Below, piece by piece: positions 17,218 through 59,520 of a stretch of 64,000 nt of DNA. Made by a program: the position numbers and the translations under genes. The stretch is from Segetibacter koreensis DSM 18137 (GTDB taxonomy: Bacteria > Bacteroidota > Bacteroidia > Chitinophagales > Chitinophagaceae), in the NCBI RefSeq assembly GCF_000374045.1, contig NZ_KB893337.1:310172-374171 (forward strand). The letters are read 5' to 3'. The notes below the pieces were generated by a model. That model had not been told where the DNA came from. It worked only from the letters and a program-made list of their open reading frames with translations, and made no database searches. How positions within the stretch are numbered: position 1 is the first letter of the stretch; each line of letters begins with the position of its first letter.

Positions 17218-17667
17218 TTATTTAATATCTTCAATCACATAGGTCATTCCATTTATAGTTGTGTTTTCATTTATATTTAACCCTATTAACTTACTGCCTA
17301 GAGGAGATTGGGGTGAAAGTACTATTACTGTAGTTCCTTCCACTGTTATTTTGCCTAATGGTATGCTTACAAACAAATATCCTTTGTTTGTTTTTACTAA
17401 AGTGCCGTTTGCAATACGCTGAGGTTGAATAGTAGGAATTATCTTTTCAATAAGCAGTTTTTGTAATAGTAGGTTTTCCAATTGCTTATTTGTATTTTCC
17501 TGATCAATCTGTAACATAGCCAAAGCGGTCTCGTGTTTGTCCCCCGCCGTGCTTTTAGTTTCGTTTGACGCACTTTCCTTTAAATCATTCAGCGTTTGAC
17601 GGAGTAAATGAATTTTATTGTTCAGTAATTCCTTGCACTGGTTATATACATTCTCTTTAAATGTCAT
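17218..17667 (-). CDS. GreA/GreB-like C-terminal domain protein
   Basis: This 149-residue protein has an N-terminal helical hairpin (about 5-75, with KHETALAMLQIDQENTNKQLENLLLQ) and a C-terminal FKBP-like domain. The latter carries the GreA pattern VLSPQSPLGSKLIGLNINENTTINGMTYVIEDI (about 115-148). Gre factors bind in the RNA polymerase secondary channel and stimulate transcript cleavage. The coiled coil here lacks an obvious acidic D-E pair at a tip, so it may be a Gre-fold regulator rather than a true cleavage factor. Homologues in Bacteroidota are often mislabelled as 3-oxoacyl-ACP synthase, an activity for which nothing in this sequence gives support. Confidence 0.65.
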   Translation of the reverse strand: MTFKENVYNQCKELLNNKIHLLRQTLNDLKESASNETKSTAGDKHETALAMLQIDQENTNKQLENLLLQKLLIEKIIPTIQPQRIANGTLVKTNKGYLFVSIPLGKITVEGTTVIVLSPQSPLGSKLIGLNINENTTINGMTYVIEDIK

Positions 17668-49190: not shown

Positions 49191-49970
49191 TTATTCCAAA
49201 CTCAATTCGGGCAGCTTTTCCCATTCAAAATGTTCATCCTTTCCTTTCCCATCAGCTCTCATTTTTGATGACCGGATAGTATCAACCGTATGATAAGTCA
49301 ATCCTTCAGAAGGCATTTCAAAATCAAGAATAGCTTTATAATCTTCAGGGGCTAAATCTCCTTCCACCCATTTTTTTGACAACTCCAACGGAAGAAATAA
49401 AGGCATACGCCATTTATTTTCACCACCATTATGAATCATCTTCATTACTTCATTTGCGGCTCTTGTAATTATTGTGAAACTCCAACGTTTAATAGCCTCA
49501 CCCGTTTCCCTATCGGGTAGCTCTGCCACCGAATATAATCCCGGTATAAAAAACATGGGCTGTTCTTTTAATCCTACTAAATATGGCACTTTCTTTTTCC
49601 ACCCCTTCACTTCCCTATGTTCGTAAATTCCGGTCACCGGCATTAAGCATCTCCGGTTCCTTATTTTATACCAATAGCTTCCCGTGTCCTCAAGTATTCT
49701 TTCACTACGCGCATTTAACATCGTAGGCCTGTTCTTTTTAAAGAGGCTCTCATCTTTTACGTAATAGGGAATACAGCCCCACTCCATTAGTCTGCAGTGC
49801 AACTTACCATCCTCACGGTTTTGATATATTATCGGGTGCTCACCATAGGCGTGACCAATGACATGAACAGACGCATCGAAATTTATAGTTATCTGATCAT
49901 CAAAAATTAAATCAGGAAAATAATCCTCTAATTGGCTTATTTCCACTTTAAACGAAATATCATAACACAT
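49191..49970 (-). CDS. yedK: SOS response-associated peptidase YedK (SRAP/HMCES family)
   Basis: This 259-residue protein forms a stable crosslink with abasic sites in single-stranded DNA. Catalytic Cys2 is directly after the start methionine (MCYDISF). The NARSE segment (TMLNARSERI, near 92) and the GIYEH and TYHTVDTI (near 237) residues form the active site. Length is typical. It is the last gene of a minus-strand operon after the UmuD/UmuC pair. The arrangement links it to mutagenic repair of damaged DNA. Confidence 0.93.
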   Translation of the reverse strand: MCYDISFKVEISQLEDYFPDLIFDDQITINFDASVHVIGHAYGEHPIIYQNREDGKLHCRLMEWGCIPYYVKDESLFKKNRPTMLNARSERILEDTGSYWYKIRNRRCLMPVTGIYEHREVKGWKKKVPYLVGLKEQPMFFIPGLYSVAELPDRETGEAIKRWSFTIITRAANEVMKMIHNGGENKWRMPLFLPLELSKKWVEGDLAPEDYKAILDFEMPSEGLTYHTVDTIRSSKMRADGKGKDEHFEWEKLPELSLE

Positions 49971-49973
49971 AGG

Positions 49974-50477
49974 TCAACTTTTTTCAATTTCGTCAAATCT
50001 AACACGTAAAGTTTGAGTTGACCGCTTCAAGATAATATAAAGTTCTCCAAAAGTTACCTGGAAAGATGGCCTAATAGTTTCGTCAGCTCCAATCCTCCAA
50101 CCTGTATTCTTAATTATATATCTTCTCATATTCTCACTATACCGGTTATTCAGGCGCATTTCCATTTCCTTTACATCTTTTACAATGCTCCAGTACACAA
50201 CATAGCGAGAAGATGGTTCTAACATCTCTCTAATTTTTTTTCTGTGTTTTTCTTTCGTCAAATCTATAATAGCCGCATACTTATCATGCGCCACTGCGTT
50301 TAAATGAATTTTAGCTAAACCCGGGTCATCATAATCAGTGACAAGTATATCCGTTTTGTATATTTCGTCGCAATGATCAAAAGCCCTTATGTAAGTTTGA
50401 CTCACCAGAAAATATTTTTTTAGTTCGATCAATCTGTTTACGTAGTTATGCTTAAACTTTTCAAAAGGCTGAAACAT
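49974..50477 (-). CDS. Conserved hypothetical protein in the SOS operon
   Basis: This 167-residue protein (MFQPFEKFKHNYVNRLIELKKYFLVSQTYIRAFDHCDEIYKTDIL) has no domain I recognise. It is soluble with mixed alpha/beta composition and a C-terminal FGELYIILKRSTQTLRVRFDEIE segment. It lies between umuC (1-base gap) and yedK (3-base gap), so it is translated with both. The position suggests a role in translesion synthesis or abasic-site handling. Confidence 0.75.
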   Translation of the reverse strand: MFQPFEKFKHNYVNRLIELKKYFLVSQTYIRAFDHCDEIYKTDILVTDYDDPGLAKIHLNAVAHDKYAAIIDLTKEKHRKKIREMLEPSSRYVVYWSIVKDVKEMEMRLNNRYSENMRRYIIKNTGWRIGADETIRPSFQVTFGELYIILKRSTQTLRVRFDEIEKS

Positions 50478-50478
50478 G

Positions 50479-51738
50479 TTATATTCTCACTTTTAAAATA
50501 TCGTTGATGTTTGTTGTATAGCAGGGAGATAAGTGTTCTGCTTTCAGCCTGTATCTCTTTTCAAACCCCTGCACTGCTAATCGGACAATTTCCTTACCTA
50601 ATGCTCGGTTGACCTTATCCATCGTTTCCATTAACATTTTCCCCTTGTTTTTTTTGGTGGCAAATAAAGAGCCTTGCACCTGGTCTGCTGGTACAAGGTC
50701 CATCACGATCACCCCGCATTTTAAATAACTGTAGCCCTCTTTAAAAATGATATCAAAGCCTTTTGAAGCGTATTTAATTATTTCAGTTGTATTATTCGAG
50801 GGAGTTTCTAATTGAATGCTGATCGAACCCGAATATTGCTTGTCTTCCGTCTTGTGCGGGTTTGTCTGAACAAAGACATTTACCTTTTTACAGCAACTAC
50901 TCTGTTGCCTCAACTTTAAAGCACAGGCTGCAGCATAATTACACAACGCTTCCTTAATCTCTGACTTTTCTGACTGCAACTTTCCAAATGATCGCGACGT
51001 GCAAATATTTTTTTTGGGTTGGGCTTCAAATTCCCATTCGATAGCCGGTATGCCTCTTAGTTCGTTTAGTAATCTTTGACCTTTTACCGTCATTTTCTTT
51101 CGTATCCATTCGTCCGGCGCATTTCTCAATTGCAGGGCAGTTTTAAATCCGTTTCGCTTTAGAAACAATGAATATTGATGGCCGATGCCCCATACATCTT
51201 CAACCTGGGTAGATTCAAGCATTTCTTCTGTCAGCCTTTCGTTTGCTGCCCAGTGAACGCCAAGTTCTTTTCTTTTTTTCTTAGCAAACCTGTTAGCCAT
51301 TTTTGCCAACGTTTTTGTAGGTGCGATACCCACGCTTACCGGTATACCAATATTCTGCTTAATGCTGTTTCTAATCTTCATACCCAGCGTCAGGAGATCG
51401 GAGTGTAGCAGGTCGTGAATATCAAGAAAAGCCTCATCAATTGAATAAATTTCTAACCTTGGCACAAACCCCTCCAGCGTTTTCATAACCCTGTCACTTA
51501 AATCTCCATACAATGTATAATTTGAACTAAAAACAGCCACCTCATTTTTTTCAATGACTTCTTTAATCATGAAAGCAGGAGTACCCATATCAATTCCCAA
51601 AGCCTTCGCTTCTTCACTGCGGGCAATGGCACAGCCATCATTATTTGACAATACAATCACAGGTCTGCCTTCCAGCTTTGGATTAAAAAGCCTTTCACAT
51701 GACACATAAAAGTTATTACAATCTACTAAGGCATACAT
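50479..51738 (-). CDS. umuC: DNA polymerase V catalytic subunit UmuC (Y-family)
   Basis: This 419-residue translesion polymerase starts [48 protein letters not shown], the UmuC N-terminus with the metal-binding aspartate. [13 protein letters not shown] carries the catalytic DE pair (near 98). The helix-hairpin-helix region ([17 protein letters not shown]) and little-finger domain follow. The end [17 protein letters not shown] is typical of UmuC. It overlaps umuD by 13 bases and is co-transcribed with it. It should be activated by the cleaved UmuD partner. Confidence 0.95.
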
Positions 51739-52160
51739 TGTTTTAAATCATTTGCAGTGATTAAAATGGTTGTAACAACACCCCATATTTGCATATTCAT
51801 TTCATCTGTAATCTCTATATCGTTCATGGCTTTGTTTGCCGGACACAGCCAGCATTTGTCTCCTATTTTCTTAAAATATTTAACCGTAAACTCACCTGCA
51901 AGAACGGCAAAAACGATATCTCCGTTTTTAGCAGTAAGCGACCTATCTATAATGAGTTTGCATTTCGGAGGAATAAATGCCTCAATCATTGAAGTTCCGG
52001 CACAATCGATAAGAAAAGTCGAAAGAGGATGTTTAATAAAAACTTTATTTAAGTCTATTCTTTCTTCGAGATAGTCCATTGCAGGCGACGGAAATCCGGC
52101 AGGAACGCGGAAATTATAATAAGGTATGCCCTTTTCCGTTTTGCTTGCCTCGTCTATCAT
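51726..52160 (-). CDS. umuD: UmuD-like S24 autoprotease, subunit of DNA polymerase V
   Basis: This 144-residue protein is a short UmuD. The self-cleavage site is between A21 and G22 in [20 protein letters not shown], very close to the E. coli CGFPSPA site. The nucleophile Ser lies in [11 protein letters not shown] (near 59) and the general-base Lys in [10 protein letters not shown] (near 96). It is cleaved on RecA filaments and then pairs with UmuC. The start codon overlaps a palindrome, described separately. It overlaps umuC by 13 bases. Confidence 0.94.
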
Positions 52161-52211
52161 TTTGCTAATATTTTTAGCAAAACTATCTTAAAAACTAATA
52201 GCTAGAACAAA
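52160..52211 (-). promoter_or_regulatory. umuD promoter with overlapping palindromic operator
   Basis: On the minus strand TTTG (52208-52211) is 22 bases before TAGTTTTG (52178-52185), an exact TAnnTTTG. A perfect palindrome with 9-bp arms, TTTTGCTAA (52160-52168) and TTAGCAAAA (52174-52182), runs from the -7 element to the A of the start codon. A repressor bound there would block transcription; LexA or UmuD-type control is likely. Confidence 0.65.
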
Positions 52212-52452: not shown

Positions 52453-55400
52453 TTGATTGCTAATCGAAACCCCGAACAACTTGTCCGCGACCAGATAGAC
52501 AAGATGCTGCACGCATCGGGTTGGTTAGTACAATCAAAAAAGCAAATAAACCCGGCTGCAAATATTGGTGTTGCCGTTCGCGAATACCAAACGAACGTTG
52601 GTCCTGCTGATTATATTCTTTTTGTAAACAAAAATCCAGTTGGAGTAATAGAGGCTAAACGTGAAGAAGAAGGTGTACGACTTACAGTGCATAAAGACCA
52701 GACAGAAGGTTATGCAAAGGCGAAACTTCGGCTGATAGATAATGATCCTTTGGTTTTTGCTTATGAAAGTACCGGTGAAGTAACACGGTTAACTAATAAA
52801 AGCACTTCTCTTTCTCAAGACTTTTCTTCAAATGAAGGTTTTCCCGTACTTTCCGGCAATAATAATATGACCACTAATTTTTTTACAAACCATAACGGAA
52901 ACTCCCTCTTAAAGAAGTTCAATGGCGCCTTTGAGCACATCGCCACTATATATGCTTTCCATGCTGTAGTTGGATATTTCAGGGCTTCAGGATATTACGC
53001 AATAAGGGAACATCTTATGAATGTACCCGAGGTAAAAATTCTTGTAGGCATCAATGTAGATTCTATAAGTGCTGAAGCGAAACGAAGAGGTCTGATGTTC
53101 TTCGGTGATCCAGAGAAAACCAGAGATGAGTTTATCCGATGGATGCGTCAAGACATTAAGGAGGCCGCTTATACCAAAGAAGTTGAAGATGGTATCCTTA
53201 AGTTCATGGAGGATATTATGGACAGGAAAATCCAGTTAAGGGTACATAAAACGAAGAAACTTCACGCGAAGATTTACATCTTCCTGCCTCAGAACTATAA
53301 TGAATACTCAGGTGGTGAAGTAATAACGGGTTCGTCTAACCTTACTGCTGCAGGATTGGGAATAGAAGACGAAGGAAATTATGAGTTTAATGTATCGCTA
53401 AGGGACTATAATGATGTTGCTTTTGCCGAACAAGAGTTTAAAAAGTTGTGGGAAGACGGAGAGGAGATTTTGCCTATAGACGTTGACAGGATAAAACATA
53501 AGTCGCACATAGGCCAACTGTTTACACCGTTCGAGATTTATATCAAATTCCTGATTGAATACTTTGGTAAGAACATAGATTATGACCCCGATGCGGTCGG
53601 TGACCTGCCAAAGAATTTTAAAAAGCTGAGTTACCAGGTAGATGCAGTCAACCAGGGATACCAGATGATCTTAGATCATAACGGTTTTATACTCGCCGAT
53701 GTGGTGGGTTTAGGAAAGACTGTTATTGCCAGCATGATTGCAAAGCGGTTCCTGATTGCTAATGGTAGTTTAAGTACCAAAATACTGGTTGTATATCCGC
53801 CACCATTAGAAAGAAACTGGAAGTCCACCTTCAGGCAGTTTGGTTTGGACAAGCATACCCGCTTTATTAGCAACGGAAGTCTTCATAAGATTTTGAAAGA
53901 CGATGAAGATTATTGGCCCAAAGAAGATTATGACCTAATTTTGGTAGACGAAGCACACAAGTTTCGTAACCACAAATCATTGATGTTTGATAATCTTCAA
54001 ACGATTTGTAAAGCACCCAGAAGCATTATCGGCAATGTATATGGACATCGTAAGAAGGTGATACTTATTTCAGCAACTCCGCTTAACAACAGGCCGGACG
54101 ATATTTACTACCAGTTGCAATTGTTTCAGGATGCGAGAAAATCAACTTTATCTACTACCAACCTGCAAAGCTTTTTTGCTCCATTAATTAGGAGGTATAA
54201 GGAGGTGTTGGCTGCAGCTAAAGTGACCGGTAGGCCTGATTTAAATGCTTTACGCGGCATTTATGGAGACATAAGAGATAAGGTGCTTGAGCCGATAACC
54301 GTAAGAAGAACAAGAACCGATGTAAAAAATTACCCAGCGTATTTGCGGGACCTGGAATCACAGGGTATCAAGTTTCCGGATATTGCCCCTCCAAAGGCAG
54401 TTGAATATGAATTAGGCCCCGAACTAGAACAATTGTTTTACGATACGATTGCTCACTTGGTAGATGAGATAGGCTATTTCAGGTACCAAGCAATAGCGTA
54501 TTTACTTCCTGAGGTACAAGACAAGTATTACTCGCAAGCTGAAAGAATTTCCAAGACACTAGCACAGATTATGATGACCCAAATGGTGAAACGTTTGGAG
54601 AGTTCTTTCTATGCTTTTAAAAATTCGCTTAATCGCTTTCGTATATCCACTCAGCGGATGATCACCATGTTCGAAAAAGGAAAGATTTATGTGGCACCGA
54701 GCACCAATATCAATTCCTTGATGGACCAGGACTGGAGTGATGAACAAATTGAAGAAAAGATATTGGAGCTGTCTGCAGAAGACCCCAAGAACCAGATTTT
54801 TTCACCTGCTGACTTCCAGGAAGAATTCCTCGACTTGCTACACGCAGACCTGCAGCATATAGAACATATATGCGACCAGTGGGAGGTTGTAACAGCAGAT
54901 CCTAAACTGGATATGTTCAAGCAGCTGTTAAAAAATGAATTGTTCCGTCACGATATCAATAAAACAGGCAAGCTGGTCATCTTTACCGAATCGAAAGAAA
55001 CTGCTATCTACCTTACTGAACAACTCAAATACCCGAAAACCTTGACGGTATCAGCTGAAAACAGGAAAGCGGTTTTTGATATCATTCAGAAGAATTTTGA
55101 TGCGAATTATAGCGGCGAGTTTCATCACGACTATGACGTCATCATTTCAACCGAGGTATTGGCAGAAGGTGTAAACCTGCATCGCTCAAACATTATCGTC
55201 AACTACGATACCCCATGGAATGCTACCAAGCTGATGCAGCGTATAGGCAGGGTAAACAGGATAGGAAGTATTGCTGAAGTGATTTATAATTATGCCTTCT
55301 ATCCTTCACGGCAAAGCGACCAGTTAATTAATCTGTACAACAATGCATTCATCAAACTCCAGGGTTTCCATACAGCCTTTGGTGAGGATAGCCGGATATA

Positions 55401-56166
55401 CACCGTAGAAGAGGTATTGGAACAGGTAAAGCTCCACACCCAGGGCATTGGTGAAGACGAAGACAAGCGCCTTATTTACCTCCGCTTCATCCGTGAGTTT
55501 AAGGAAAAGAATGAGAAGGAGTTTAAACGCATTAGGCAGTTACCATTGAAAGCACGAACAGGACGCAAACCTGGTAAACAACACAAGGAGATAACTGGTG
55601 GAAGCCTCATATTTATGAAGTCGCCTTATAAACTGGAGTTTTATAAACTGCATAAAAAAGTAACCATTGAACCCTTGACATTTATCCAGGCGGCTGAGAT
55701 GTTTGAAGCCAAAGTGAATGAAGTGTCTGAAGCACTGCCCGATTATCATCACAAGCATGTAGAAAAAGCGACTGCGCATTTTGAACAGGAATTATTTTCC
55801 AGTTCGATAGAAACTGTATCGGGCGAAACGGCAGATGCAAAAACCAACCAAGCTAAAAAGTTTATACGCGAACTGCGTGCCGATAGCAGGGATGAGAAGT
55901 TTAGAAATGCGGCTGAAACCATTCTGCTGATGCTGGATAAGGGCACCATTACCAATTTGTCAAGCGAACTCAACAAGCTACGGCTAAAGTACAACAAAGG
56001 CGATATAAAAGCACATGCCGTAGAAAACCTCATCATGCAGTATGCAGCCAAGTACGCCAGCATCAACAGCGAAATGGATGATGCAGATGCATTGGATGCA
56101 CCACTCTTGCCATTAGAAATAACCCAGAAGCCGGATATTATTTTATCTGAAACATTTACCAGCTAA
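52453..56166 (+). CDS. Nuclease-PLD-SNF2 helicase fusion of the defence operon
   Basis: This 1237-residue protein has three modules. An N-terminal HsdR-like nuclease domain carries D53 and E67-x-K69 (GPADYILF...GVIEAKREEEG). A phospholipase D-like module follows with KLHAKIYIF (H-x-K, near 270) and GSSNLTAAGLGIEDEGNYEFNV. The rest is an SNF2-type helicase: LADVVGLGKT (Walker A, near 420), VDEAHKF (near 500), and the C-terminal lobe with LAEGVNLHRS...MQRIGRVNRIG (near 930). It starts with TTG; the conserved N-terminus would be lost with the next ATG (residue 18). The MTase gene follows after 18 bases. Role: translocating restriction or DNA-targeting component. Confidence 0.88.
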   Translation: MIANRNPEQLVRDQIDKMLHASGWLVQSKKQINPAANIGVAVREYQTNVGPADYILFVNKNPVGVIEAKREEEGVRLTVHKDQTEGYAKAKLRLIDNDPLVFAYESTGEVTRLTNKSTSLSQDFSSNEGFPVLSGNNNMTTNFFTNHNGNSLLKKFNGAFEHIATIYAFHAVVGYFRASGYYAIREHLMNVPEVKILVGINVDSISAEAKRRGLMFFGDPEKTRDEFIRWMRQDIKEAAYTKEVEDGILKFMEDIMDRKIQLRVHKTKKLHAKIYIFLPQNYNEYSGGEVITGSSNLTAAGLGIEDEGNYEFNVSLRDYNDVAFAEQEFKKLWEDGEEILPIDVDRIKHKSHIGQLFTPFEIYIKFLIEYFGKNIDYDPDAVGDLPKNFKKLSYQVDAVNQGYQMILDHNGFILADVVGLGKTVIASMIAKRFLIANGSLSTKILVVYPPPLERNWKSTFRQFGLDKHTRFISNGSLHKILKDDEDYWPKEDYDLILVDEAHKFRNHKSLMFDNLQTICKAPRSIIGNVYGHRKKVILISATPLNNRPDDIYYQLQLFQDARKSTLSTTNLQSFFAPLIRRYKEVLAAAKVTGRPDLNALRGIYGDIRDKVLEPITVRRTRTDVKNYPAYLRDLESQGIKFPDIAPPKAVEYELGPELEQLFYDTIAHLVDEIGYFRYQAIAYLLPEVQDKYYSQAERISKTLAQIMMTQMVKRLESSFYAFKNSLNRFRISTQRMITMFEKGKIYVAPSTNINSLMDQDWSDEQIEEKILELSAEDPKNQIFSPADFQEEFLDLLHADLQHIEHICDQWEVVTADPKLDMFKQLLKNELFRHDINKTGKLVIFTESKETAIYLTEQLKYPKTLTVSAENRKAVFDIIQKNFDANYSGEFHHDYDVIISTEVLAEGVNLHRSNIIVNYDTPWNATKLMQRIGRVNRIGSIAEVIYNYAFYPSRQSDQLINLYNNAFIKLQGFHTAFGEDSRIYTVEEVLEQVKLHTQGIGEDEDKRLIYLRFIREFKEKNEKEFKRIRQLPLKARTGRKPGKQHKEITGGSLIFMKSPYKLEFYKLHKKVTIEPLTFIQAAEMFEAKVNEVSEALPDYHHKHVEKATAHFEQELFSSSIETVSGETADAKTNQAKKFIRELRADSRDEKFRNAAETILLMLDKGTITNLSSELNKLRLKYNKGDIKAHAVENLIMQYAAKYASINSEMDDADALDAPLLPLEITQKPDIILSETFTS

Positions 56167-56184
56167 ACCAATAGAACGATCGTC

Positions 56185-59100
56185 ATGGACCAGCAGACCC
56201 TTAAACGGATATTTGAAAAAGCATACGACTCTAGCGAATGGATAGAAGTAGCAAAAGAAGTTTTTAAAGCAGATAATATTCTTACCAAACCAGCTAAAAT
56301 TAACCTGCCTGCAAACGACTGGGAAGCCACAGGTGTAGAACTGGGAAGCTTTGAAACCACGGATAACAGGCAGATTGGCTTGTATGAATTAACCATAGGA
56401 CCTAAGGCACAATTGCACCGCAACAAAAAAGGGATGCGCGAACTATTGGCCAAAGTGTACAAAGAAGATGTGGATGCTGCGCTGATTGTATTTGTACAAG
56501 GCAACAAATGGCGGTTTAGTTATGTAAGCGAAATATATACCCGCGACGATAAAGGCAGACGGCAAAAGAAATCAACCGACCCTAAGCGCTACACCTACCT
56601 TCTGGGTGAAGGTGAAAGAAGCAAAACCGCTGCGGACCGATTTGCCAAAGTAAGAACTACCGCCAGTCTCTTTAAAACAGGTGTGTCGCTCGAAACATTG
56701 GAAGAGGCGTTTAACGTAGAGAAGATGTCGAAAGACTTCTTCAATGCTTATCGTAAGCACTACGGTGCGTTTACGGCTTACCTCACCGGCGAAGATGAAA
56801 ACAGCAAGGAAGTGTGCAAATCTGCTGCGGCCTTTACCTCTGTTTTTAAAAAAGACAAAAAATGTGCACGTGACTTTGTAAAAAAACTGCTGGGCCGTAT
56901 TGTATTTATGTACTTCCTTGAAAAGAAAGGATGGCTTGGTGTAAAAGAGGGAGAAAAGTGGGGGGATGGTAACGAGAATTTTCTAAGGGATCTGTTTAGA
57001 GATACCAAACACAAGCAAAACTTTCATCCCAATGTATTGGTGCCGCTGTTCTATGAAACATTGAACACTGACCGAAAAGATGAATTGTTTAAAATAGATA
57101 AAAGCGAGTTTACCCACGGAGACTACCACAAACTGAAAATTCCTTTTCTGAATGGTGGCTTGTTTGAAAACGATATGCTCGAAGCAGACGGGCTGGTGTT
57201 GCCAGAAAAACTGTTTGCCGACCTGTTTACTTTTTTTGACCAGTACAACTTTACCGTGTACGAAGACAGTCCCGATGAACATACCGTAGCGGTTGACCCG
57301 GAAATGCTGGGACATATATTTGAAAACCTGCTGGAAGACAATAAGGACAAAGGCGCATTTTATACCCCGAAAGAAATTGTGCACTATATGTGCCAGGAAA
57401 GCCTGATAGAATATCTCTTTACTAAATTGAACGATCAGGGTGAAACGGTTAAAAGAGAATCAATAGAGAAATTGATTAAGCGTCAGGAAGCTGCAGAATT
57501 AATAGAATATGATGAAGCCATTTTAAAAGCTTTACGTGAAGTAAAAGTTTGCGACCCGGCTATTGGTTCAGGTGCGTTTCCCATGGGCTTACTAATGGAG
57601 ATATACCACGCTGTTGAGGTCTTATATTTTGTAAGCCCTGATGTGACGGAGAAAGTTTGGAAGATGAAAGACTGGAACCCGGCGAAAGTAAAGTCAGACA
57701 TTATTCAAAACTCTATTTATGGGGTTGATATAGAAAAAGGTGCTGTTGATATTGCCCGATTACGTTTTTGGTTGAGCTTGGTAGTAGATGAGACAAAGCC
57801 ACAGCCATTACCTAACCTTGATTATAAAATTGTAGTGGGAGATAGCTTGTTGAGCAAGTTTGAGAATCATGTAATTGACATTGAGTGGAACTATACTACT
57901 AGTCATGGTACGGCAGATACCAAAAAGCTTATTACTGAGCAAGTAGGCTTATTGCAGAGGCTTTCGGCATGGCAAGGTGCCTATTATAACCACAAAATAA
58001 ACAAGGAAAAATATCAAAGAGACATTAAAAATCTAAAGATCGATATACTTATCAATCAGCTTACTTTAAGCAGGAAAAGCTATAGAGACAAAAACAAAAC
58101 CATTGTTCCTTTAGATGGGTTTCCTCTTACAGCTAAGCAGATTAAGACTAATCTTGAGAATGATTTAGTTATTGCAGAATTCGATCAGAATATTCAAAAG
58201 CTGCAAACCATAAAGAAAGATGCTGCTGCAAAGCTTGAATTCTTTGATTGGAGGCTTGACTTTCCTGCAGTAATGAATAGTAGTGATAAGAGTAAAGAAG
58301 GTTTTGACATTATAATTGCAAATCCTCCATATGTGGACATAAAAGGGCTACCTCCAGCACACGTCAAATCTTACTTTCTAACCTTTGCAACTTGCGAAAA
58401 CAGAATAAATCTATACTCCATCTTTATTGAAAAATCTCTTCGCTTATTACGAAACGACGCTTCACTTTGTTTTATAGTCCCCAATTCCTTGTTATTAAAT
58501 AGTTCTTACAAAAAGATTAGAAATAGGCTCGTAAATCATCTAACTCAATTAATTAAGTTACCTGACGCAATCTTCGAAAATGCAATAGTTGAAACCATAA
58601 TTTTCCAAATTAAGACCTCAAACTTACTGGAGGAGATCAAAGGAAAGGTTTATCCTAATGATTTTAAAACTGACCTAAGAAATATTGTTTTTAATTCTTT
58701 TGAAAGATCGCAATGGCGAGAAGATCCCGAGAATAAATTTAATATTTTTTCGGATGGTATAGTATCAGCTTTATTGTTACATATGGAAAAGGACAGTGTT
58801 GCTTTAGAAACGTTGGCCGACTTTTCATTAGGAATTACACCGTACGATAAATACAAGGGACATACTGAAGAACAAATTCGAAATCGCGTTTTCCATTCAG
58901 ATAAAAAAACTTCAAAATTTCACGTGCCAATGATTTCCGGTAAAAACATTCTTCCTTATGTTGTTACCGATCAAATTGAAGAATATTTGGAATACGGAAG
59001 CTGGTTAGGAGCTGCAAGAGAAAAACGGTTTTTTATACAACCGAGAATTATAGTTAGACAAATAATTTCTGGTAACCCTCCTCGAATTTATGCAGGGTAT

Positions 59101-59520
59101 ACCAGTATGGAACTTTATTTCACTCAAATCGGCTTTGCCATAACCACGAATAAAGAAGATGATTTAAAGTATATTCTATGTATACTTAACTCTAAACTAA
59201 TGAACTTTTATCATAAATATAAGTATTTAGATATCGAGAAAAATACATTTCAGAAGATTCTGATAGCAAATTGCAAGAGATTTCCGATAAAGAAAGTAGA
59301 TACAGAAACAAAGAAATCCCTAAGTAAATTAGTTGATAAAATTATTTCAAGAAAAACTGAAGAACAGATCGGTAACATAACAGAGGAAGCGACCATTGAT
59401 AAATGGCTCTACAAGATATATGCCTTGAATTATACTGAAGCTTGCCTTATTGAAGGGAACAACGAGTGGATGACTAAAGAGGAGTACGAAGCGTTCACAT
59501 TACCGGGAGAGAAAGAATAG
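56185..59520 (+). CDS. Eco57I-type N6-adenine DNA methyltransferase
   Basis: This 1111-residue protein is a class I SAM DNA methyltransferase. The SAM motif is VCDPAIGSGAFPMG (near 455), preceded by the conserved GAFYTPKEIVHYM block (near 391). The catalytic motif IV is IIIANPPYVDIKG (near 712). A C-terminal region (about 830-1090) contains two target-recognition-like parts with the usual VALETLADFSLGITPYDKYKG and LKYILCILNSKLMNFYHKY. It resembles restriction-modification proteins of the Eco57I/PglX type. With the helicase it would form a self/non-self DNA discrimination pair. No nuclease motif was seen in its N-terminus. Confidence 0.9.
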   Translation: MDQQTLKRIFEKAYDSSEWIEVAKEVFKADNILTKPAKINLPANDWEATGVELGSFETTDNRQIGLYELTIGPKAQLHRNKKGMRELLAKVYKEDVDAALIVFVQGNKWRFSYVSEIYTRDDKGRRQKKSTDPKRYTYLLGEGERSKTAADRFAKVRTTASLFKTGVSLETLEEAFNVEKMSKDFFNAYRKHYGAFTAYLTGEDENSKEVCKSAAAFTSVFKKDKKCARDFVKKLLGRIVFMYFLEKKGWLGVKEGEKWGDGNENFLRDLFRDTKHKQNFHPNVLVPLFYETLNTDRKDELFKIDKSEFTHGDYHKLKIPFLNGGLFENDMLEADGLVLPEKLFADLFTFFDQYNFTVYEDSPDEHTVAVDPEMLGHIFENLLEDNKDKGAFYTPKEIVHYMCQESLIEYLFTKLNDQGETVKRESIEKLIKRQEAAELIEYDEAILKALREVKVCDPAIGSGAFPMGLLMEIYHAVEVLYFVSPDVTEKVWKMKDWNPAKVKSDIIQNSIYGVDIEKGAVDIARLRFWLSLVVDETKPQPLPNLDYKIVVGDSLLSKFENHVIDIEWNYTTSHGTADTKKLITEQVGLLQRLSAWQGAYYNHKINKEKYQRDIKNLKIDILINQLTLSRKSYRDKNKTIVPLDGFPLTAKQIKTNLENDLVIAEFDQNIQKLQTIKKDAAAKLEFFDWRLDFPAVMNSSDKSKEGFDIIIANPPYVDIKGLPPAHVKSYFLTFATCENRINLYSIFIEKSLRLLRNDASLCFIVPNSLLLNSSYKKIRNRLVNHLTQLIKLPDAIFENAIVETIIFQIKTSNLLEEIKGKVYPNDFKTDLRNIVFNSFERSQWREDPENKFNIFSDGIVSALLLHMEKDSVALETLADFSLGITPYDKYKGHTEEQIRNRVFHSDKKTSKFHVPMISGKNILPYVVTDQIEEYLEYGSWLGAAREKRFFIQPRIIVRQIISGNPPRIYAGYTSMELYFTQIGFAITTNKEDDLKYILCILNSKLMNFYHKYKYLDIEKNTFQKILIANCKRFPIKKVDTETKKSLSKLVDKIISRKTEEQIGNITEEATIDKWLYKIYALNYTEACLIEGNNEWMTKEEYEAFTLPGEKE

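Follow-up and report, generated by a model that had tools for sequence, protein, structure and literature searches.

A palindrome that runs from the umuD promoter into the umuD start codon of Segetibacter koreensis DSM 18137 is, with high confidence, to be read as the operator of the non-canonical LexA of Bacteroidota, an assignment that would place the genes umuD-umuC-X-SRAP, which include those of an error-prone DNA polymerase, under SOS control and that takes repressor binding, cleavage and induction from the literature. It is a well-supported but ordinary SOS regulatory site, with a motif that is already published. The observations behind this reading are the site itself, its recurrence at SOS genes, a single candidate repressor carrying cleavage and catalytic residues, the double operator in front of that repressor's own gene, and the co-occurrence of site and repressor in relatives. 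The window analyzed was a stretch of 64,000 nucleotides (contig NZ_KB893337.1, forward strand, positions 310,172 to 374,171), and coordinates are positions within the window unless a contig or locus is named. Features relevant to the site are as follows.

49191 to 49970, minus strand: SRAP-domain (YedK/HMCES-type) gene, 259 amino acids, fourth gene of the operon (PF02586, E value 1.3e-31)
49974 to 50477, minus strand: gene X, 167 amino acids, third in the operon, without a match to any Pfam or NCBIfam family
50479 to 51738, minus strand: umuC, 419 amino acids, Y-family polymerase, overlapping the end of umuD; its Pfam domains pass
51726 to 52160, minus strand: umuD, 144 amino acids, S24 peptidase without a DNA-binding domain; NCBIfam Pol V autoproteolytic subunit matched over the cut-off
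52160 to 52182, no strand assigned: palindrome with full 9-bp arms, the outer five pairs of which are not conserved in relatives
52165 to 52177, minus strand: operator core CTAA-N5-TTAG, reading CTAAAAATATTAG on this strand, at predicted positions -4 to +9 of the umuD transcript
52178 to 52185, minus strand: -7 promoter element TAGTTTTG, abutting the operator core (consensus from the available parts of PMC6847099 and PMC9723704)
52208 to 52211, minus strand: possible -33 element TTTG, 22 nucleotides upstream of the -7 element and a weak motif alone

On the plus strand, positions 52160 to 52182 read TTTTGCTAA-TATTT-TTAGCAAAA, which is the perfect palindrome of 9-bp arms around a 5-base center that a sequence-only reading of the window had described. 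Its end at 52160 coincides with the first base of the umuD ATG (open reading frame 51726 to 52160, minus strand), and the span proposed in that reading, from within the -7 element to the start codon, is borne out by these coordinates. The element TAGTTTTG at 52178 to 52185, read on the minus strand, matches TAnnTTTG, the Bacteroidota-type -7 element; it departs from a perfect promoter in having a G where the consensus TAHHTTTG, in the available part of PMC6847099, finds almost none. The same part of that source places the G of the -7 element at position -5 in Flavobacterium johnsoniae. By this rule, umuD transcription would start at about 52173 and leave a leader of 13 nucleotides, in agreement with the dozen or so bases first estimated. 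A sigma-70 scan of the umuD promoter gave no match, as expected for the phylum Bacteroidota, and a scan for Escherichia coli-type promoters and terminators found nothing.

The sequence-only reading had also offered the palindrome as a candidate SOS box for this lineage, to be checked by searching for similar sites at other SOS genes. That search found CTAA-N5-TTAG at the LexA-like repressor gene (two sites), recA, imuA(-imuB), dnaE2, and both other umuD genes. This recurrence, together with the SOS operator published for Bacteroidota (available parts of PMC8565304), supports the candidate. Between -250 and +10, the core was present at 7 of 9 SOS genes (three umuD genes, the repressor, recA, imuA, and dnaE2), whereas 2000 dinucleotide shuffles averaged 0.098 and never exceeded 2; dnaE2 was located through its own site, and the unbiased figure without it is 6 of 8. 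A dinB gene on contig C1 had no core in the same interval, and a second dinB, on contig C32, carried its core just inside the first-ATG open reading frame and was thus counted as a miss.

Two additional cores precede a UvrD-like helicase gene, and others precede a DUF763 gene and a DUF2130 gene. The core at the DUF763 gene (L040, contig C18) lies 2 nucleotides before the ATG, and this gene and the DUF2130 gene (L002, contig C3) are candidate extra SOS genes. A broken dinB copy (G000:C11:8736-9161) has four stop codons inside the match and retains a core just upstream, and a near copy of this dinB is found on C32, a short contig that carries dnaE2 as well. Five identical repeat copies sit at contig ends (the start of C23 at L042:1-275, the starts of C27 and C32, and the ends of C5 and C10), and each holds the start of an open reading frame with a CTAA-N5-TTAG core 36 nucleotides before the ATG. 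The 71 visible residues of this frame matched the zinc ribbon of IS1595 transposases weakly (E value 3e-4; 21.1 bits, under the cut-off of 25.4), and the repeat is possibly an SOS-linked insertion element.

The core and 5-base spacing of the umuD site are those of the operator recognized by the non-canonical LexA of Bacteroidota (Sanchez-Osuna et al. 2021, PMC8565304), and what follows concerns the available parts of that paper. It reports the core before umuDC, recA, dinB, imuA-imuB-dnaE2, and other genes in Bacteroidota, identifies the regulator as a CI-like S24 repressor family, and lists Chitinophagaceae among the families with large CTAA-N5-TTAG regulons. Binding to CTAA-N5-TTAG was demonstrated for the Pontibacter actiniarum protein in gel shifts with mutated sites, and the regulon in this organism is induced by mitomycin C. 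Genes shared between the published system and S. koreensis include umuDC, recA, imuA-imuB-dnaE2, SRAP, and the repressor itself, a CI-like HTH_3 plus S24 repressor is present in both, both have multiple sites at some promoters, and no difference in kind was seen between the published system and the umuD site. An operator that abuts a -7 element near an ATG was not found described in those parts. What the umuD site adds to the published motif is its position immediately after the -7 element and near the ATG, along with longer 9-bp arms that are not conserved. The LexA box of E. coli is likewise a palindromic operator within a promoter, served by a self-cleaving S24 repressor, but its half-site and spacing (CTGT-N8-ACAG) differ from CTAA-N5-TTAG, and E. 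coli LexA is a winged-helix protein, whereas the candidate S. koreensis repressor, encoded on contig C24, carries HTH_3.

Of the four S24 proteins over the cut-off in the S. koreensis genome, three were UmuD and one combined HTH_3 with S24. This candidate repressor (G000:C24:279094-279840; HTH PF01381, E value 1.4e-11; S24 PF00717, E value 1.3e-7) was the sole HTH-bearing S24 protein found, and it gave no match to the LexA DNA-binding domain (PF01726) that defines classical LexA. Its domain content supports assignment of the predicted regulator to the CI-like HTH-plus-S24 proteins, not to classical LexA. The residues A100-G101 (the cleavage bond), S137, and K176 were kept in 30 of 30 loci. Two cores precede the S. 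koreensis repressor gene, 43 and 20 nucleotides before the ATG. The repressor was matched in 182 of 195 family genomes, and among the best 30 of these 182 loci, S. koreensis included, 29 had the core and 18 had two or more; the exception, L154, had CTAA-N4-TTAG. Cores ended 2 to 7 nucleotides before the repressor ATG in 26 of the 30 loci, and paired cores at repressor loci were 22 to 24 nucleotides apart.

Another regulator could bind the umuD site instead, such as UmuD itself or a TetR-type protein, an alternative to which we give very little weight. A precedent for the former is UmuDAb/DdrR in Acinetobacter, where the umuD operon is likewise under a palindromic operator and where, according to the available part of PMC11332147, the repressor is a UmuD with a DNA-binding part; the UmuD encoded in the window has an S24 domain only and lacks such a part. 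A TetR-type protein is brought into consideration by two similar cores, CTAACGGTGTTAG and CTAACAGTGTTAG, that flank a TetR-type gene on contig C8, but these have a different, C/G-rich center, and across genomes CTAA-N5-TTAG tracks the HTH-plus-S24 repressor. The C8 cores (L003:1506 and 2156) have the form CTAAC-N3-GTTAG, one of them lies 18 nucleotides before the first start of the TetR-type gene, and they are probably the operator of another regulator.

Co-occurrence of the core and the candidate repressor was also seen when umuD loci were compared. The closest named relatives of umuD were from a TPA bacterium isolate (69% identity), a Ferruginibacter metagenome-assembled genome (66%; Ferruginibacter is a genus of Chitinophagaceae), and a Bacteroidetes bacterium (63%). 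In the family as a whole, umuD was found in 122 of 195 genomes, and 21 of the best 30 of these 122 loci, S. koreensis included, had the core. It was also present at umuD of the three named relatives (L083 to L085), for a total of 24 of 33 loci, and the nine loci without a site comprised eight with none and one with too little upstream DNA. With start codons assigned mechanically, the nearest in-frame ATG was 3 to 5 nucleotides past the core in 10 of the 24 sites and at most 9 nucleotides past it in 12. A close repressor (E value below 1e-90) was encoded by all 20 genomes with a core at umuD, S. koreensis excluded, while 6 of 8 umuD genomes lacking the core had no or only a weak repressor match (Fisher P value of 7e-5, which overstates the association because three genera account for all six core-less genomes). 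The remaining two core-less loci, L107 and L108 (genomes G068 and G141), had a core 350 to 503 nucleotides before umuD, ahead of a short open reading frame. This frame may represent an extra small gene of the SOS operon.

Comparison of the 24 umuD sites clarified which part of the palindrome is conserved. The proposal of an operator with 9-bp arms survived in its CTAA-N5-TTAG core and failed in its outer arms: arms of 9 bp occurred only at the S. koreensis site, complementarity stopped at the 4-bp dyad in 14 of 24 sites, and flank pairing at each of the seven tested positions was no better than among shuffled partners. Since pairing of the outer flanks was at chance, the full arms were rejected as a motif and the operator was taken to be the 4-bp dyads, a delimitation that agrees with the gel shifts in the available parts of PMC8565304, where changes adjacent to the dyads had no effect. 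The flanks were also asymmetric, with the upstream flank ending in TTTG in 11 of 24 sites and the mirror flank in 4 of 24. TAnnTTTG was exactly flush with the core in 6 of 24 sites, and position -8 relative to the core was T in 17 of 24 and position -7 was A in 17 of 24. By this comparison, one of the longer arms in S. koreensis is contributed by the -7 element and the other by the A-rich context of the start codon, with chance accounting for the rest.

These data also bear on a possible RNA hairpin that would mask the start codon of umuD and exert translational control. In a transcript started upstream, a stem of 9 bp could form across the ATG (-27.7 kcal/mol, z score of -2.2), but the -7 element places the transcription start within the palindrome, and no such stem is available to the shorter RNA (z score of -0.84). 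In addition, outer pairs showed no covariation in the 24 umuD sites, each of the seven being at the shuffled level, and the core is repeated before unrelated genes at varied distances from the ATG, leaving translational control highly improbable.

In numbers alone, neither the palindrome nor the core stood out. Two palindromes with 9-bp arms and a 5-base center occurred in the window (17369 and 52160), against an average of 0.5 per window over 40 shuffles, so palindromy by itself is weak evidence. CTAA-N5-TTAG occurred 111 times in the 6.1-Mb genome, fewer than the 164 occurrences of a reversed control pattern, and for this reason the core by itself is not specific and its genome-wide count was rejected as evidence. 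The full 18-base pattern had one exact match in the genome, with the next best match at 2 mismatches. Among 56 listed core sites with an adjacent G or C, 10 were at known SOS genes and many were within unrelated open reading frames. What exceeds chance is placement at SOS promoters, not palindromy or the number of cores. An AT-rich promoter and an A-rich start context that are symmetric by accident would fit the similar palindrome at 17369, the 0.5 such palindromes per shuffled window, and the lack of conservation in the outer arm pairs, but accident is a most unlikely source of a core repeated at SOS promoters and at 21 of the 30 umuD loci from the family.

A second exact core in the window, at 59320 to 59332, lies inside the open reading frame of a 1,111-residue methylase and was taken as chance. 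The region from 52453 to 59520, on the plus strand and divergent from umuD, encodes a 1,237-residue PLD/SNF2-type helicase and this 1,111-residue protein, which resembles type IIG restriction-methylases; the two are likely a phage-defense pair.

Downstream of umuD, gene X and the SRAP gene follow umuC directly, separated by only a few bases, an arrangement suggestive of a single four-gene operon. The best NCBIfam match of UmuC was the UmuC subfamily model, at 404.8 bits (below the 431-bit cut-off). Gene X is present in two copies in S. koreensis, with relatives in 31 of the 195 family genomes; a phylum sample of 395 genomes yielded 3 with the gene, all three from the same family. Across the 29 gene X loci read, SRAP was beside it in 26 and umuC in 23, and 5 of the 6 loci without umuC had a core upstream (L170, L175, L176, L177, and L183; not L173). 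The fold of X was predicted with confidence (mean pLDDT of 90.9, pTM of 0.81). A Foldseek search of this model against the PDB returned 0 matches at an E value of 0.001, a second structural search gave a best Z score of 5.8 over 61 residues of the heme oxygenase HugZ (below the threshold of 8), and there was no PDB sequence match. Weak matches to PADLOC PDC-M27C (E value 5e-4) and to DcpS_C (E value 0.026, in 1 of 28 members) were set aside. A link between UmuC-like polymerases and SRAP is in print (PMC12926913 and PMC3765255); gene X was not found described in the available parts of these two papers, a weak absence given the limited literature search. One tentative proposal, in which our confidence falls slightly short of even, is that X represents a new SOS protein family, confined among the genomes sampled to this bacterial family, that acts with SRAP (abasic-site crosslinking), that X-SRAP forms an SOS unit of its own without umuDC in some genomes, and that an IS1595-like element may have the core ahead of its transposase gene, which would link transposition to DNA damage.

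If the non-canonical LexA acts at umuD as the literature suggests, a repressor dimer would occupy the CTAA and TTAG half-sites directly downstream of the -7 element and over the transcription start. Bound at about -4 to +9, it would keep RNA polymerase off the umuD-umuC-X-SRAP promoter. After DNA damage, RecA filaments would stimulate the repressor to cleave itself at its Ala-Gly bond, turning the operon on.

These findings provide a sequence-level confirmation, in another genome, of the published Bacteroidota SOS circuit, with exact promoter coordinates. The location of the operator directly after the -7 element, often within a few bases of the ATG, points to simple occlusion of the promoter combined with a very short leader. 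Gene X, next to SRAP, is an uncharacterized but conserved addition to the likely SOS genes.
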